Below are positions 999 through 32,286 of a DNA stretch of 32,286 bases, in pieces (position 1 is the stretch's first letter; each line of letters opens with the position of its first letter). A program made the position numbers and the translations under genes. Location: positions 1-32,286 of IMG/VR virus record IMGVR_UViG_3300035120_000150, one strand, 5' to 3'. Below the pieces are notes generated by a model. That model had not been told where the DNA came from, did no database searches, and worked only from the letters and a program-made list of their open reading frames with translations. Source of the DNA: a virus.

Positions 999-2429
999 GT
1001 GTGCCGGATAGGTGATCACGTGAAGCGCGGCCCGAGTAAAATAACCAAGGAAACGAAGGCGCAGCCGGCCGAGCACGTTGAGACCCGGCCGCTAACCGCT
1101 ATCACGCCGTATCCGCAGAACGCGCGCACCCACACCGACCAGCAGATCGAACTGCTCGCCAACCTCATGCTGCGCTACGGCGTCGACCAGCCGATCGTGG
1201 TTGACGAGGCCGGCGTCATCCTCAAGGGCCACGGCCGGCGGCTGGCGGCCATCAAGGCCGGCTTCAAGACGTTCCCGGTGGTGGTGCAGCGTGGTTTGTC
1301 CGATGACGACAAGCGCGCGCTGCGCATTGCCGACAACCAGGTCGCGTTGCTGGCCGGGTGGGATCAGCGATTGATGCAGCTGGAGCTCGGCGAGTTGAAG
1401 CTTGCCGGGTTCGACCTGCCGCTGCTCGGGTTCGGCGACGCCGAGTTGGCGTCGTTCCTCGATGCTAATCCGGGGCTGACCGATCCCGACGAGGTGCCCG
1501 AGGCGCCCGCGCCCGCGGTCGCGGTAAGCAGGCCGGGCGATGTGTGGCTGCTCGGCCGGCATCGGCTGGCCTGCGGCGACGCGCTATCCGAAACCGATGT
1601 GAAGCGGCTGCTCGATGGGGCGCAGATTCACCTCGCGAACTGCGATCCGCCCTATGGAATCAGCATTGTCAAAGCTACCGCCGACGGCGGTAGCAAGCCT
1701 TTTGGTTCGATCGGTGGAGTTCGGAACTCCACCGATCGAAAGCACATCGGGAATTACGACCGAGGCCGTGGACACGGCCTCGGCCAGTCTGGATTTGGCC
1801 GCGTTCCCGTGAACGCGGCCAAGGCAATAATTCCGACCGGCGTCTATGCTGAAGTCATCGGCGATGACAGCACGGACACGGCCATCGCCGCCTATAAAAT
1901 GTTGATCAATCTTGCTGTCGAGACGATCGTGCTATGGGGCGGCAATTATTACGCCAACGCGCTTCCACCGTCGCGGTGCTGGTTCGCATGGGACAAAGAA
2001 GTGTCCGGAAATTTTGCCGACATGGAGTTGGCTTGGACAAATTGCGATCAGGTAGCGCGACTATTTCGGCATCAGTGGAACGGTTTAATGAAAGCCTCAG
2101 AGCGCGGGGAGCGCCGCGTGCATCCAACGCAGAAGCCGGTCGCATTGGCTGAATGGGTAATCAACACAGCCGCGCCGAAGGCTCAAACAGTGCTCGATCT
2201 TTTTATAGGCAGCGGTTCGACGTTGATCGCATCTGAACGACAAAATCGCCAGCATTTCGGTATGGAAATGGCGCCGGCCTATGTCGACGTTGCGGTGCTG
2301 CGCTGGCAGAACTTCACTGGCGAGCAGGCGACGCTCGATGGAGGCCACGGCCAAACCTTCGCGCAGGTCGCGGCCGAGCGGACGGGCCAGCGCGAGCAGC
2401 AACCCGCAGAGGCCGCAGTACCGGCATGA
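999..2429 (+). CDS. ParB-like domain fused to DNA methyltransferase (beta-type motif order)
   Basis: Residues about 30-130 form a ParB/sulfiredoxin-like domain with the box GHGRR at 77-81. After a Pro-rich linker comes an amino-methyltransferase with catalytic DPPY at 216-219 and the S-adenosylmethionine motif DLFIGSGS at 400-407, the DPPY-first order of beta-class enzymes. DPPY suggests N6-adenine methylation; the target sequence is unknown. HPTQKP precedes motif I, as usual. No helix-turn-helix domain of true ParB is apparent. Between DPPYG and the GDDSTDTA segment the linker is longer than I expect for the family, and its DNA (1674-1822) is four perfect hairpins. The GTG at 999 or GTG at 1020 could start translation; neither ribosome site is strong. 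Phage methyltransferases usually protect against host restriction or mimic host methylation. Confidence 0.85.
   Translation: MCRIGDHVKRGPSKITKETKAQPAEHVETRPLTAITPYPQNARTHTDQQIELLANLMLRYGVDQPIVVDEAGVILKGHGRRLAAIKAGFKTFPVVVQRGLSDDDKRALRIADNQVALLAGWDQRLMQLELGELKLAGFDLPLLGFGDAELASFLDANPGLTDPDEVPEAPAPAVAVSRPGDVWLLGRHRLACGDALSETDVKRLLDGAQIHLANCDPPYGISIVKATADGGSKPFGSIGGVRNSTDRKHIGNYDRGRGHGLGQSGFGRVPVNAAKAIIPTGVYAEVIGDDSTDTAIAAYKMLINLAVETIVLWGGNYYANALPPSRCWFAWDKEVSGNFADMELAWTNCDQVARLFRHQWNGLMKASERGERRVHPTQKPVALAEWVINTAAPKAQTVLDLFIGSGSTLIASERQNRQHFGMEMAPAYVDVAVLRWQNFTGEQATLDGGHGQTFAQVAAERTGQREQQPAEAAVPA
1674..1822. repeat. Array of four perfect hairpins inside the methyltransferase gene
   Basis: Four inverted repeats follow one another: 1674-1682/1686-1694 (9-bp arms, 3-nt loop), 1706-1721/1725-1740 (16-bp arms, 3-nt loop), 1760-1769/1774-1783 (10-bp arms, 4-nt loop) and 1795-1806/1811-1822 (12-bp arms, 4-nt loop). 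All arms are perfectly complementary and the gaps between hairpins are 11, 19 and 11 nt. The reading frame stays open and encodes residues 226-275. The arms of different hairpins are unrelated in sequence, so this is not a simple tandem repeat. Confidence 0.9.
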
Positions 2430-2956
2430 CGACGCCCCCCGATAAGCCATTTAACTTCGCCGACATTTCCAAATCCCCTGAGCCGTACAAACGCAAGTCG
2501 CGGGCAAAGAACCCGGACTATCCCAGCAAGGGCGGCCGGCCGCACGGCGCGCTGAATAAGCGAACCATCGCGGCGATCGAGAAAGCCAAGGCGAACGCGC
2601 CGGTCGTGCAGAAACTGTCGCTGACGAGTCTGCGCGAGACCGCGCGCTATCTCGGCTCGGCGATGGCGCTCAAGCAGCCGTGGGAACCGGACGGCTCGCC
2701 GCGCCCTGGCGGCGACTACAAAGTATTCATGGATCTTGCCGTGCTGCAGCTGCGATACCTCGAGGCGATCACGCCGTACGAGGCGCCGCGACTGGCGGCG
2801 ATCGCGATGGTGCCGCAGGGCGAGCGGCAGCGCACGATCGTGAACGTCACGATCCTCGACGAGCGCGGCGGCAAGGTGTTTAGCGACGAGACGATCGACG
2901 GCGAGGCGACGGCGATCGAGGATCAGCGTCCTGGTGATGAAGAAAAAGTGGCGTGA
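2426..2956 (+). CDS. Probable terminase small subunit or related packaging protein
   Basis: The 176-residue protein starts with ATG overlapping the methyltransferase stop (ATGA) and ends overlapping the large terminase start, so the three are translationally coupled. It contains GGRPHGALNKRT near residues 33-44, a G-R-P-x-G-x-x-N-K phrase typical of small DNA-binding phage proteins found just before large terminases. A charged, Lys-rich helix follows, and the C-terminus is acidic. Position immediately before the large terminase is the main support for a small terminase (DNA recognition) role; the sequence alone does not prove it. An alternative is a DUF5681-like accessory protein. Confidence 0.55.
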   Translation: MTTPPDKPFNFADISKSPEPYKRKSRAKNPDYPSKGGRPHGALNKRTIAAIEKAKANAPVVQKLSLTSLRETARYLGSAMALKQPWEPDGSPRPGGDYKVFMDLAVLQLRYLEAITPYEAPRLAAIAMVPQGERQRTIVNVTILDERGGKVFSDETIDGEATAIEDQRPGDEEKVA

Positions 2957-4224
2957 TGCTCGACCGAGTACCGCGCGAGATCATCTATCGGCGGCCGCCG
3001 CTCTACGAGAAGCAGCGCGCGGCCATGTTCGATCCAACGCGCATCTCGCTGATTGAGGCCAGCACCAAGAGCGGCAAGACGGTCTCGGGTATCATCTGGC
3101 TTTACGAGAAGGCGCTGCAGGGCACGGCGGGACAAAACTTCTGGTGGGTTGCTCCGGTTTCTATACAGGCGCGCATTGCGTTTAATCGCATGCGGCAGAA
3201 CTTCCTCGATCAGGACGGGCGATCGGTATTCATGGTCAACGTGGCTGATCATACGCTCACCAACGAGCGCGGTGCGGTGATTGCGTTTCGTTCAGGTGAT
3301 CATCCTGACACGCTCTACGGCGAGGACGTCCACGCCGCGGTGATTGACGAGGCGTCGCGCTTCAAGGAGGAAAGCTGGCACGCGATTCGGTCGACCTTGA
3401 CGGCGACGCGCGGGCCGATCCGGATCATCGGCAACGTCAAAGGCCGCAGGAATTGGTTCTACAAGCTGGCACGCACAGCTGAAGCCGGCTTTCCCAATCT
3501 CGCGTATCACAAGCTCACCGCCTATGATGCGGTGGAAGCGGGTGTGTTGGCTGACGCAGAGATCGAGTCGGCGAAGTCGATGCTGCCGGACCATGTGTTC
3601 CGCGAGCTCTACCTCGCCGAGCCGAGCGACGACGAAGGCAATCCGTTTGGTGCCGAGCATATTCGCGCCTGCATCGCGCCGCTGTCCGGCAAGCCGGCGG
3701 TAGCGTGGGGTTGGGATCTGGCGCGCAAGCAGGACTGGACGGTGGGCATCGGGCTTGATGCCGAGGGCTGCGTCGCCATTGCGCTGCGGTTTCAGAAACC
3801 GTGGTCGGAACAAGTCAAGATCATCAAGAAGTTCGTCGGCAGGACGCCGGCGTTGATCGACGAGACCGGCGTCGGCGACCCGATCGTTGAGGCGATCAAG
3901 CGCCCAGATCACGGCGAACGCGGAAACGGCGCGGAGATCTACCAACTGTCATGCCCGCGGCTCGAGGGATTTCGGTTCACCAGCGCATCCAAGCAGATGC
4001 TGATGGAAGGTCTGGCGCTGGCGATCCACGAACGCAAGGTGCGCTTTCCGCAAGGGCCAATCAGCATCGAGTTGGATAACTTCGAATATGAATTCACGCG
4101 GCTTGGTGTTCGATATTCGGCGCCTCCCGGTATGCATGACGACTGCGTTTGCGCGCTCGCGCTGGCGTGGGCGTGCTTCGAGCGCAAGAAGCGCGGATAC
4201 AATCTCGACGCCATGGCCAGCTGA
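2956..4224 (+). CDS. Phage terminase large subunit
   Basis: The ATPase and nuclease that packages DNA into procapsids. Counting from ATG 2956, the Walker A variant EASTKSGKT is at 34-42 and Walker B AAVIDEAS at 127-134. An RNase H-like nuclease domain starts at WGWDLARKQDW (Asp254) and ends with an HDD at 394-396, giving the usual acidic metal-binding set. At 422 residues it is of normal length. GTG 2953 is also in frame, but ATG 2956 overlaps the upstream stop as TGATG, the junction style used throughout this operon. The portal follows 12 bases later. Confidence 0.93.
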   Translation: MLDRVPREIIYRRPPLYEKQRAAMFDPTRISLIEASTKSGKTVSGIIWLYEKALQGTAGQNFWWVAPVSIQARIAFNRMRQNFLDQDGRSVFMVNVADHTLTNERGAVIAFRSGDHPDTLYGEDVHAAVIDEASRFKEESWHAIRSTLTATRGPIRIIGNVKGRRNWFYKLARTAEAGFPNLAYHKLTAYDAVEAGVLADAEIESAKSMLPDHVFRELYLAEPSDDEGNPFGAEHIRACIAPLSGKPAVAWGWDLARKQDWTVGIGLDAEGCVAIALRFQKPWSEQVKIIKKFVGRTPALIDETGVGDPIVEAIKRPDHGERGNGAEIYQLSCPRLEGFRFTSASKQMLMEGLALAIHERKVRFPQGPISIELDNFEYEFTRLGVRYSAPPGMHDDCVCALALAWACFERKKRGYNLDAMAS

Positions 4225-24552: not shown

Positions 24553-25653
24553 ATGGCGGTGGACAAGGCCGACCCACCGTGGCGATTGGATCCGCTGCAG
24601 AACATCATCAACATCAGTTGGGGTGGCGGGACTGTGTTTGTTTATGGAACGCTGTTGGACAGTACAATATTCTATGTAAAGGTTAAAAACAGTAAAGATA
24701 CGAGCCCGCAACTAAAAGCCGTTGCAATTCCCAATCCAGGGCAGTTTGGTCTTTCGACTTACGGCAGTTCTTATCATCTTGTCGTCAAGAACGAGGGCTT
24801 TCCTAACGAAGAGAAAAAACCTGTATTCTTATTGTGCAGCAATTCGGCTTCTTTAGTTGGTTCCGTCGATGGTGCAGGCAATCCGATACAACTGCTAGCT
24901 TACCACACTATGATCCATTATTCAAATGATGGCCTGACCTGGCAAATTGTACATCAACATGATGGCGCACCAACTCTAACAAATCCAGATTCCGCGAACC
25001 CAGTTGCATTGGTTTGGAATGAAGATAACAACTCGTTTTTCTATGATCAATGTTTGGCAACTGACATCGTTTCAGAGCAGATATTGTCATCATCTGATGG
25101 TCTTGGTTGGAGTGTGATTAGCAGCAATGAAACCGGCGCTAGTTCTGATTACATATCAGAGTTTCCGCCGAGCTATTGCAATCAGAATGATTGTCTTGAT
25201 GCTTTAGGCCAACACGTGCCGGATGGTGTCATGGCCAATGATCCACCGCCACTGTCTATCAATGCTCCACCTCCGAAGTCGTCCAAGAAGCTCACGGCAA
25301 ATCCCGTTCTACCACCGATCATCAATTATTGGAATGGGACCAGCAGCGTCGCTTTTTCTAGCGACGGTGAAACCTGGGGCGGGAGCGATGTTAGGATTGT
25401 TCAAATTGATGATAAAGGGTCCCAGCAAACTGCTATTGTCTCAATTCCAGGCTTGCAAAAGGTTTTTTGCGTAGCGGGAGCCGATGGCATCCTGATGGCA
25501 GGTGGGTCTCCAGATAAGGATGGTGGTTCAGGAGCTGTCGTATTGTCGCTGGATAAAGGACAGACTTGGACCACGCTGGCGCAACACGATAGCGCGGTCA
25601 CGACCATGAGTGCGGCTCCTGCACTAGACATCAAATCATCGCAATCACAATGA
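24553..25653 (+). CDS. Asp-box (BNR-like) propeller-type protein
   Basis: A 366-residue protein with four Asp-box style motifs: SNDGLTW (124-130), SSDGLGW (180-186), SSDGETW (269-275) and SLDKGQTW (332-339). These occur at blade turns of sialidase-like beta propellers. There is no sign of the sialidase catalytic Arg/Tyr set, and the number of motifs is low for a full propeller. Host surface binding or glycan recognition is plausible. The DNA at about 24660-25300 is AT-richer than its neighbours. The start is three bases after the previous stop; the end overlaps the next by ATGA. Confidence 0.65.
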   Translation: MAVDKADPPWRLDPLQNIINISWGGGTVFVYGTLLDSTIFYVKVKNSKDTSPQLKAVAIPNPGQFGLSTYGSSYHLVVKNEGFPNEEKKPVFLLCSNSASLVGSVDGAGNPIQLLAYHTMIHYSNDGLTWQIVHQHDGAPTLTNPDSANPVALVWNEDNNSFFYDQCLATDIVSEQILSSSDGLGWSVISSNETGASSDYISEFPPSYCNQNDCLDALGQHVPDGVMANDPPPLSINAPPPKSSKKLTANPVLPPIINYWNGTSSVAFSSDGETWGGSDVRIVQIDDKGSQQTAIVSIPGLQKVFCVAGADGILMAGGSPDKDGGSGAVVLSLDKGQTWTTLAQHDSAVTTMSAAPALDIKSSQSQ

Positions 25654-26963
25654 TCGTCGGGGTCATTGCAGAGGAGTTGTTGCTTGGGTTGGCCACGATA
25701 CCCGGTATCGTCGTCGACAATGATATTGTTCCATCCCCGACGATCAAGGTTCCGGGGTTCCTGTTGTTTGAAAGCTCGTTCGATGAAGGTGACACGATCT
25801 ATCAGGCCTATGTCGGGGACGTTGACAATAGTGTGTACCCACCACTCATCGTCGACCCGGATACCATTTTTACCTTCACGCGATCTGCGTCCCTTGCCAT
25901 CGTCGCCCAGTCTTTCACCGATGTCGATACGATCTATCGGCCGATTGTTCTCAGCAAGGTCCTCGGTCCGCAGCTGTATATCGATCTCGACATCTTCGGC
26001 GGCGTCAAAAAGCTCACGCAGGGCAAGGCGACAATCAACCAGACCTTCCCGATCGATACTGTCATCGACATCGACATCATTTTCGCTCCGTTGGTCGAAC
26101 GATCCGGTGTTATCGTCATCACCCAACAAGCCGCGTTGGCCACCGAGTTTGACACCGTCTATGTCAATGAAACCACGAGCAGCGTTACCGCGCTGCTCGG
26201 ATCGTTCGTCGGAGAGACCGCAGGCTACACGCCGCCGCTCGGTTATCTGTCCCCGCAACCGGTTGGTGCCGACGACGCGATCCCCGTTGCGAACGTCTTG
26301 GGGCCGGTAGCGCCAGGCATCCTTGTCGATGTCGATGCCTTCTTCACCCCGACGAGGGTCAACTACGTAACATCCAATGCGGTCTTCGATAGCGATGTCT
26401 TCTTCGCGCCGTTCGCAGCAAGGCAGTTGCTGCCGGGCGTCGTTGTCGCTGCAGATGTAATCAATGGTCCGTTCTTCACTCAGCCCGGTTCGTTCGGTCT
26501 CGTCATCGATGCCGGCGAGTTTATTCCGGTACCAATTGTCACCCCGCAGCGCGCGACCGTTGGTCCACAACTGCTTAATGATAGTGCTATCGATGCCTTC
26601 TACGCGCCCATAGCCAGTCCGGCAATCATCGCGCCATCTGTCATGGACATCGATACCGTCCTTGCACCGACCGTGAGCTTCGGTGCACTCACACCGGTTG
26701 TTTCCGTCATTGACCCTGACGCCTTCTATTCACCGGTTGTTGGCAAGCCGCCGATCACACCTGCGCTGTTGGTTGAGACCGACATCTTCTACGCCCCGGC
26801 GATGGGTTACGATCAAACGTCGTCGGTGGGCATCGTCATTGACACCGACACATTCTATGCACCGTCAATTGCAGGCATAGCGAGCTTCGATGGCACCTTG
26901 GCACTCGACGGTCCGATTATGCCGTCAACTCCGCCAGTCACCGTGATCTATATCGAGGGTTAG
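25650..26963 (+). CDS. Asp-rich repeat protein 2 (beta-repeat fibre)
   Basis: A 437-residue protein composed of about 15 repeats of 20-27 residues. Late repeats are clearest: LVETDIFYAPAMGY, IVIDTDTFYAPSIAG, MDIDTVLAPTVSF, and VDVDAFFTPTRVN. The pattern is (V/I)-x-D-x-D-x-(F/V)-(Y/F)-x-P. The same type of repeat occurs in the protein at 13772-14989. Acidic pairs suggest metal binding, which is inference. ATG overlaps the previous stop as ATGA, and the large fibre follows after six bases. It probably forms an extended stalk in the tail fibre complex. Confidence 0.7.
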   Translation: MIVGVIAEELLLGLATIPGIVVDNDIVPSPTIKVPGFLLFESSFDEGDTIYQAYVGDVDNSVYPPLIVDPDTIFTFTRSASLAIVAQSFTDVDTIYRPIVLSKVLGPQLYIDLDIFGGVKKLTQGKATINQTFPIDTVIDIDIIFAPLVERSGVIVITQQAALATEFDTVYVNETTSSVTALLGSFVGETAGYTPPLGYLSPQPVGADDAIPVANVLGPVAPGILVDVDAFFTPTRVNYVTSNAVFDSDVFFAPFAARQLLPGVVVAADVINGPFFTQPGSFGLVIDAGEFIPVPIVTPQRATVGPQLLNDSAIDAFYAPIASPAIIAPSVMDIDTVLAPTVSFGALTPVVSVIDPDAFYSPVVGKPPITPALLVETDIFYAPAMGYDQTSSVGIVIDTDTFYAPSIAGIASFDGTLALDGPIMPSTPPVTVIYIEG

Positions 26964-30670: not shown

Positions 30671-31570
30671 TCACTCGGGGCCGGCGAGCCGCTTCCGCGT
30701 CGCCGCGACGTTCGCCTCGATCCGGGCATGGATTTTCACCGCGTTGGTCTTGATGCCGGCCAGCGTGGCATCGTTGAGCTTTTGCCACTGGTCAATCTCG
30801 CCGGCCGTCCTGGCCGTGCCGATGGCTGCGATGTAGGTGCTGCCCCAGGCCACGTATCGCCGCCATTGGGTGTCGGCCTTCGGCAACGCGATGGTGTGGG
30901 GTGCCTCGATCTCGCCGGTCTCAAGATCGTGGGGCGGCACGCCGGAAGCGGGCACTGGCGCGGGCGGCTTACCCTCGGCTTCGACCGGGGGATTGACGGG
31001 CGGGAGCTGCTCGATCCGCGCGTTGCCCTTGCTGGTGGCCTCGTCGAACTCCTCGGGCGAGAACACGCCCAGCATCATTTCCGGCATGTGCCGACGTGCC
31101 CACACCCGGGTGCCATGGTACATGAGCTGCTGGTCCGGTTGCTTGCTCCATTGCGTGTTTGCGGTCCTGGCGTCCTTGAGCGTGACCGTCGCGGTGCGGG
31201 ACGAGCCCTCGCCGCGCAAGCGGCCATGCACAGTAATGGTGCGCTCAGCGTCTTTGCCCGCATAAGCAAACGACAGCCGCTCTTCGAGATTGCCGCGCAC
31301 GTTGATGACCGCGGCAACGAGCTTGCCCGAGTACATCAGCTTTCCCTGGATGACGCTGCACTCCTGCGCCACCGCGAACGGGTCCATCTGCCAGCGCACT
31401 GCCTGCTGGATCACCATCAGGCAATCGGGCGCCGATTTTTGCAGCGCGGCCGGAACCAGTTTGGCACCGGCCATGACGTCGGCAAGCTGCATGGCTTCTT
31501 TCAGCGTGGCCGGGATGAGGCCCTGCATCGGCCGCGAGACCGCCGCCGGATCGAATTGGATGACGTTCAT
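30671..31570 (-). CDS. recT: RecT-family single-strand annealing protein
   Basis: A 299-residue protein with RecT features: QAVRWQMDPFAVAQECSVIQ, KLMYSGKLVAAVINVRG, and LMYHGTRVWARRHMPEMMLG followed by VFSPEEF. RecT binds single-stranded DNA and pairs complementary strands in phage recombination. The C-terminal 110 residues are less conserved, Pro-rich in the middle and helical at the end. The start ATG 31570 overlaps the exonuclease stop (ATGA), so the two are coupled. Confidence 0.88.
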   Translation of the reverse strand: MNVIQFDPAAVSRPMQGLIPATLKEAMQLADVMAGAKLVPAALQKSAPDCLMVIQQAVRWQMDPFAVAQECSVIQGKLMYSGKLVAAVINVRGNLEERLSFAYAGKDAERTITVHGRLRGEGSSRTATVTLKDARTANTQWSKQPDQQLMYHGTRVWARRHMPEMMLGVFSPEEFDEATSKGNARIEQLPPVNPPVEAEGKPPAPVPASGVPPHDLETGEIEAPHTIALPKADTQWRRYVAWGSTYIAAIGTARTAGEIDQWQKLNDATLAGIKTNAVKIHARIEANVAATRKRLAGPE

Positions 31571-32286
31571 ATACGCGACTCCTTGAGTGACAGACGACCG
31601 GCGCGGTCGCGCCTGATTTCGATGCCGTGGCCGTGGCAGCGCACGGCGTCGAGCGGGACGAGGCCCTTAAGGTCTTTCTCGGCGGCCAGTGCCATGCGGG
31701 CTGCGATGCGGTTCTCGAGCCATACGACTGCCTCCGAGGCCCAGAGATTGTCGCCGGTCATGTCGTAGGTCTTCATGGGCTTGACCCGCGGCGGGAGCGG
31801 CGGAACCGGTACTCGCTCCACCGGTTCGGTCAGCGTCTCGACGCAATGCCAAAAGTTGTCGACCCGCTCCCACAGCGCGTGCTCGTAATCGGCATTCCAC
31901 TCAACGGGACGCTCGACCGGCTCCTGCCCGCCGTGCACGATCAACAGCGCGGCCCGTTCCGCTCCCAGGCAGGCACGCTGGCCGATCAGTTGCGGGGTGT
32001 AATAGGACTCGACCTCGTCGAGCTTGCGCCACGGCCCCGGCGCCTTGCAATCGATCACGGTGGCGTCGTCGGCGCGGAACGCATCGAGCGTGCAGCAAAA
32101 GTACGGCCGCTCGGGATGGTGCACCACGTCGCCGCGGTGCGAGAGCGCGCGGCCGGTTTTGCGTTCGTGCCAATCGAGTGCGAACGGCTCGATCCAGGAT
32201 CCGAATTGCACCGCCCATTTGTCGTCGAGGTCTTCCGGCTCCCAGGCCGGATCGCCGACGAGGCGCTGCCATTCGCGCAGGATTTC
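31567..32286 (-). CDS. YqaJ-type phage exonuclease, 5' part outside the window
   Basis: The frame is open to the right edge, so the gene begins beyond it; a GTG at 32211 is not needed as a start because coding continues upstream (WQRLVGDPAWEPEDLDDKWA). The visible 239 residues contain FGSWIEPFALDWHERKTGRA, the D of TLDAF and the VIDCKAPG signature of YqaJ/lambda exonuclease-like nucleases (usual form E-x-K; here D-C-K). It degrades one strand of double-stranded DNA to provide substrate for RecT. Its stop overlaps the RecT start. Confidence 0.82.
   Translation of the reverse strand, partial: EILREWQRLVGDPAWEPEDLDDKWAVQFGSWIEPFALDWHERKTGRALSHRGDVVHHPERPYFCCTLDAFRADDATVIDCKAPGPWRKLDEVESYYTPQLIGQRACLGAERAALLIVHGGQEPVERPVEWNADYEHALWERVDNFWHCVETLTEPVERVPVPPLPPRVKPMKTYDMTGDNLWASEAVVWLENRIAARMALAAEKDLKGLVPLDAVRCHGHGIEIRRDRAGRLSLKESRI

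Follow-up and report, generated by a model that had tools for sequence, protein, structure and literature searches.

The locus described here lies in a 32,286-nucleotide (nt) stretch of viral DNA, positions 1-32,286 of the IMG/VR virus record IMGVR_UViG_3300035120_000150, which we refer to as the window. An open reading frame on its plus strand (999..2429, with a GTG start at 999 or 1020) encodes a ParB-like / beta-class N6-N4 DNA methyltransferase. The product matched N6_N4_Mtase in Pfam (2.8e-17; ParB_N was sub-threshold, and Pfam gave no other domain) and the DNA methyltransferase family PHROG 498 (1.5e-97), and Foldseek returned matches to ParB/Noc and M.BceJIV/CcrM. The linker that runs from DPPYG, the catalytic motif IV, to WGGNY (1644..1949, plus strand) spans 102 codons, compared with 56-72 amino acids (aa) in most homologues; an expansion of this kind had been suspected in the original prediction, which was made from the sequence of the window alone. 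In a structure model with a mean predicted local distance difference test score (pLDDT) of 83, residues 232-271 (numbered from 1020) scored below 50, suggesting that the linker is disordered; as it also varies in length, it would be able to absorb insertions. A second model, of the hairpin-rich relative L111, had a pLDDT of 52 and was too weak for use.

Four perfect hairpins stand in a row in this linker. On the plus strand these are H1 (ATADGGS; GCTACCGCCGACGGCGGTAGC) at 1674..1694, with an arm of 10 base pairs (bp) and a loop of 1 nt; H2 at 1706..1740 (arm 17, loop 1); H3 (RGRGHGL) at 1760..1783 (arm 11, loop 2); and H4 (FGRVPVNAAK) at 1795..1822 (arm 12, loop 4). The original prediction had reported four in-frame hairpins at 1674-1822, in the codons of residues 226-275, with arms of 9, 16, 10 and 12 bp; all four do lie in a single open frame, and the reported arms are what ours become once a minimum loop of 3-4 nt is imposed. 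We searched the whole window for perfect hairpins with arms of at least 10 bp and a loop of up to 8 nt, and H1 to H4 were the only ones, while Markov-shuffled windows contained 0-1. Synonymous-codon shuffles of the linker, with protein and codon usage held fixed, never reached the stem total of 57 bp (0/300) or the longest arm of 17 bp (0/300), bearing out the earlier statements that chance does not produce these hairpins and that selection on the protein does not require them. The same DNA was found in contigs from three other metagenomes, which rules out an assembly artefact: two of these contigs are identical to the window across 4.6-5.9 kilobases (kb), and the third (IMGVR_UViG_3300045141_000061) carries one difference across 12,342 bp, an A/C difference at position 1758 (plus strand), 2 nt from H3.

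Related methyltransferases have hairpins in matching positions and show compensatory changes in them, rather than losing them without trace. H1 is also present, with such changes, in L013, L015 and L016 (we designate relatives by L and a number). In L013, whose protein is 71% identical to that of the window, the counterparts of both H1 and H3 show concerted arm changes, and the loop of H3, GA in the window, is its reverse complement, TC. The suggestion that some of the hairpins might be an insertion held in part: H2 belongs to an insertion that L013 and L014 are without, whereas H1 and H3 have counterparts in L013. Opposite H4, L013 carries an imperfect palindrome with an 8-nt spacer that, after inversion, agrees with the window at 7 of 8 positions. 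H4 thus looks like an inverted, perfected form of the L013 palindrome, a likeness that is suggestive only (0.09 on its own).

To place these hairpins within the wider family, we collected relatives by a scan with the catalytic domain followed by wider scans; a pattern search with GEAYDIP gave many unrelated matches, which were discarded. Viral contigs related by the catalytic domain had hairpins at corresponding places with different sequence, and arms reached up to 31 bp across the family. Among the matches listed, which held approximately 110 distinct linkers, hairpins occurred in 0 of 51 linkers of 50-61 aa, in 3 of 35 linkers of 62-84 aa (3/86 for all linkers shorter than 85 aa), and in 24 of 24 linkers of at least 85 aa, with a mean of 2.9 each. 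Linker length and hairpin content were strongly correlated (Spearman 0.74, p = 5e-20). Across 20 loci, the linker contained 7.9 hairpins per kb with arms of 10 bp or longer, vs 0.115 per kb elsewhere, an enrichment of ~68-fold. In the hairpin-rich clade, they recur at four positions, which we call A (VATNGYVGGG), S (DVGGGASHM), K (GLGxxxGxKPFG) and V (VRGSxGAxN). GC (guanine plus cytosine) content was rejected as the sole cause, given that hairpins occur in L106 (38% GC) and L082 (49%) and are lacking in L100 and L115 (both 70%). No relative was found in a first scan of a genome collection; among the linkers extracted in a genome profile scan and a GTDB sample, there were only relatives without a long linker; and phage and plasmid records gave only distant relatives, of which the isolate linkers that we read (PaV-LD and pOW20-A) were of ordinary length. 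No hairpin-bearing isolate was found among the matches listed. We also observed another 13-bp palindrome, CTGGCAGCACATCCGTGCTGATGTGCTGCCAG, within the ParB-like region of L211 (718-749), L213 (2457-2488) and L220 (7350-7381), which is imperfect in their sister L228, and long perfect hairpins elsewhere in hairpin-bearing phages, at L228:2584 (23-bp arms) and L209:6000 (17-bp arms).

This survey bears on the proposal, among those of the original prediction, that the hairpins are an in-frame mobile palindromic element of the Rickettsia type or a programmed bypass element. Palindromic insertions that lengthen the linker in frame, and the position of H2 within an insertion relative to L013, would fit a mobile element. 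However, we found no copies elsewhere in the window, where a search with the hairpins returned only self matches, or elsewhere in the contigs, and the hairpins occupy motifs that relatives have without hairpins. As for bypass, every DPPYG-WxGNY pair lies within one open frame (104/104), so nothing needs skipping. We therefore regard either form of this proposal as very unlikely.

We next asked how the two arms of a hairpin change between relatives, counting concerted changes in 29 distinct sequences that were picked by protein motif rather than by pairing. Cells changed on both arms numbered 49, compared with 18.9 +/- 3.0 after shuffling (0/500), and the covariation score was 0.344, compared with at most 0.110 when one side was slid. 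At V, pairing joins the wobble position of the Arg codon to the first position of the codon across the stem: CGA faces TCG (Ser), CGC faces GCG (Ala), CGT faces ACG (Thr) and AGA stands opposite TCT (Ser). L064 and L224 have arms of 30-31 bp that differ between the two relatives at several positions, each matched on the opposite arm, and the loop between the arms is inverted. The 3' arm of K encodes KPFG, a motif found also in hairpin-free relatives (e.g., L054 and L057); the 5' arm is therefore plausibly the copy, if the direction is read correctly from these sequences.

Concerted stem changes, together with the very stable RNA fold of 1650-1850 (z = -8.0), are also what would be seen if the hairpins were selected as messenger RNA structure, as the original prediction had allowed, for instance for translation pausing or RNase processing. 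The kind of pairing argues otherwise. Selection on RNA pairing is expected to leave many wobble pairs, and inside the stems we counted 6 G-T and 4 A-C in ~900 pairs (composition ratio 1.10), such that G-U has no advantage over A-C. Pairing in the stems is almost exclusively Watson-Crick and breaks off abruptly, with one bridging mismatch vs 926 pairs. At stem ends, G-T does exceed A-C (56 vs 29), and a small RNA component is possible. Selected RNA structure does not predict inverted loops, and most relatives manage without hairpins; we consider this explanation improbable. Rfam gave no above-chance match near the hairpins.

The loops themselves occur in two orientations, NCCRAY or RTNGGN at K, GTATCC or GGATAC at A, GGT or ACC at S, and GTC/GAC, ATC/GAT or ATT/AAT at V. 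The clearest case is that of L211 and L228, which share 1490 of 1554 nt (64 differences, ~96% identical) and yet show three loop inversions: CAATA/TATTG, which is exact, and ATTGGG/TCCAAT and TTATCG/CGATAG, each with one residual change. With the number of base changes taken into account, the three inversions together have a chance probability of about 5e-7. Reverse complementing brought non-identical loop pairs nearer to each other in 48 of 87 cases at K, 27 of 59 at A and 112 of 160 at V, compared with 5, 0 and 0 pairs when loops were only reversed and 7, 0 and 19 when they were only complemented. On a tree made with the domain that follows the linker, the linker itself being excluded, orientation changed at least 5 times at K, 6 at V, 3 at A and 2 at S, or at least 16 times overall. 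Each flip alters 1-3 residues (V/D, IGG/SNG, GY/VS). To our knowledge, site-specific invertases act on segments longer than these loops of 1-8 nt.

These inversions point to an explanation that the original prediction had not listed, polymerase template switching. We propose, with a probability of roughly 0.77, that template switching by DNA polymerase, as the phage replicates its DNA, gives rise to the hairpins, extends them and maintains their perfect pairing, and that they are tolerated owing to their location in a disordered loop. The start point would be a short inverted repeat, such as GGC TCC nnn GGA GCC coding for a GSxGA turn. The nascent strand would switch to its own or the opposite strand, copy the other arm and switch back, leaving one arm rewritten as the reverse complement of the other; a switch between strands would also invert the short spacer, and switching could insert extra codons, all presumably with no dedicated enzyme involved. 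The frame would be kept because inversions leave the length unchanged and only in-frame insertions survive. Such changes would be tolerated directly after the DPPYG catalytic motif, in a loop that varies in length and whose predicted disorder (residues 232-271) would explain that tolerance. Template switching between inverted repeats is known to homogenise arms and invert spacers in yeast genes (PMC8604942), and both outcomes have been described for RNA hairpins in RNA genes (PMC8794818). Arm homogenisation together with spacer inversion is thus a published signature of the process, and the phage linkers display perfect concerted arms, spacer inversion and no internal G-U bias. Near the end of the window, on the minus strand, are genes for a RecT-like annealing protein and a RecE-like exonuclease (30671-32211), and a system of this kind, for single-strand annealing, might promote template switching.

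Several points weigh against template switching as a full account. It is read from comparing sequences and not from watching a replicating population. Arms were located by requiring perfection, biasing the sample towards perfect stems; the flip counts are lower bounds, and several branches of the tree behind them are weak; in 1-nt loops, an inversion is indistinguishable from a single transversion; and the inversion of H4 in the window is not significant alone. Most importantly, template switching alone leaves unexplained why the hairpins are concentrated 68-fold in a single linker of a single gene family, and hairpin positions are conserved among proteins that are ~60% identical, which also fits selection on the hairpins or on diversity.

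Selection could enter without replacing the mutational step. The linker may be a selected diversity generator, in which palindromes are kept because template switching at them allows fast, reversible amino-acid changes beside a catalytic motif, with effects such as altered target choice or escape from a host inhibitor. The local enrichment, the conservation of hairpin positions across divergent phages, the residues changed by each flip and the location of the sole single-nucleotide difference in 12.3 kb, beside H3, all speak for this. On the other hand, short linkers free of hairpins are found in many family members, some of them at 70% GC, several motifs (KPFG, VRG) show conservation instead of diversity, and the structure model shows no structure in the loop. 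We hold this reading tentatively, as possible but doubtful. Slightly more doubtful is the specific form in which coding-palindrome arrays under selection constitute a cis-encoded diversity generator without a dedicated enzyme, the loop being reversibly flipped and lengthened by template switching and the enzyme varied during infection. Template switching accounts for the form of the hairpins and for their flips, and tolerance combined with self-perpetuating palindromes offers the simpler account of their concentration.

Downstream of the methyltransferase, the next gene but one encodes the terminase large subunit (2953..4224, plus strand), and the original prediction had accordingly raised a packaging or replication signal. 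In most of the hairpin-bearing contigs that we checked, terminase lies shortly downstream of the methyltransferase, an order that would suit a DNA packaging, replication or termination signal, but hairpin-free pOW20-A has the same gene order. Furthermore, L008 and L009 have flanks and a terminase that are 82-88% identical to the window at the nucleotide level, with a swapped, hairpin-free catalytic domain. Hairpins are therefore not needed for packaging there; they travel with the methyltransferase domain rather than with the genome, and a signal of this type is highly improbable. The swap relative to L008 and L009 covers window positions 1584-2273, the ParB part at the N-terminus and the tail at the C-terminus being shared. 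Elsewhere in the window, an open reading frame at 25650-26963 encodes a repeat protein with a recurring motif of the DTDTFYAPxx type.

Searching the literature on palindromes in phage methyltransferases, we found no description of such hairpins; a homing insertion in a phage methylase (PMC11855218) is a different element. The closest parallel is template switching in Saccharomyces cerevisiae, where arms of ~10 bp or more are homogenised, 2-5 bp spacers are inverted inside genes and flips occur in parallel (PMC8604942). The yeast events are scattered over 39 genes, whereas the phages show 2-4 adjacent palindromes in one linker, with arms of up to 31 bp, in many phages and with the linker expanded in length. 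Quasipalindrome-associated mutation in Escherichia coli is a related known system (PMC7202029). RNA hairpins attributed to template switching share the perfect stems, concerted changes and loop inversions, though they lie in non-coding genes and their loop inversions are rare (PMC8794818), while the phage hairpins lie in a protein-coding linker and both loop orientations are common. Nematomorpha mitochondrial genes likewise contain perfect inverted repeats within translated sequence, some at shared positions, with template switching proposed as their origin; these differ in being mitochondrial and in occupying conserved regions of the proteins of several genes, with arms as long as 284 bp, and the word inversion is absent from the text (PMC6649704). 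Rickettsia palindromic elements are also in-frame palindromic insertions in unstructured protein segments, but form families dispersed through the genome, whereas the phage hairpins are confined to one gene. Finally, PARCELs are palindromic coding repeats that yield variable proteins, but they are 75-nt tandem repeats of imperfect symmetry, often in membrane-targeted proteins (PMC2996958); the Pfam result for the window methyltransferase, N6_N4_Mtase and ParB_N only, does not match their profile of a 25-aa tandem repeat.

Set against these systems, the phage linker palindromes appear to be a new and extreme case of a mutational mechanism that is already known. The evidence for template switching at inverted repeats usually consists of rare, scattered events. 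In this family, the process has apparently supplied most of the sequence of a single protein linker, time and again and across many phages, and one half of the residues in each hairpin is accordingly dictated by the other half, read as its reverse complement. Most likely, this is a replication error process visibly writing protein sequence, and the linker offers a natural system for measuring template switching. It also calls for caution, as blocks of residues replaced in this way can mimic positive selection or RNA-structure covariation. Lastly, it raises the question of whether a replication error is being used for diversifying a methyltransferase.
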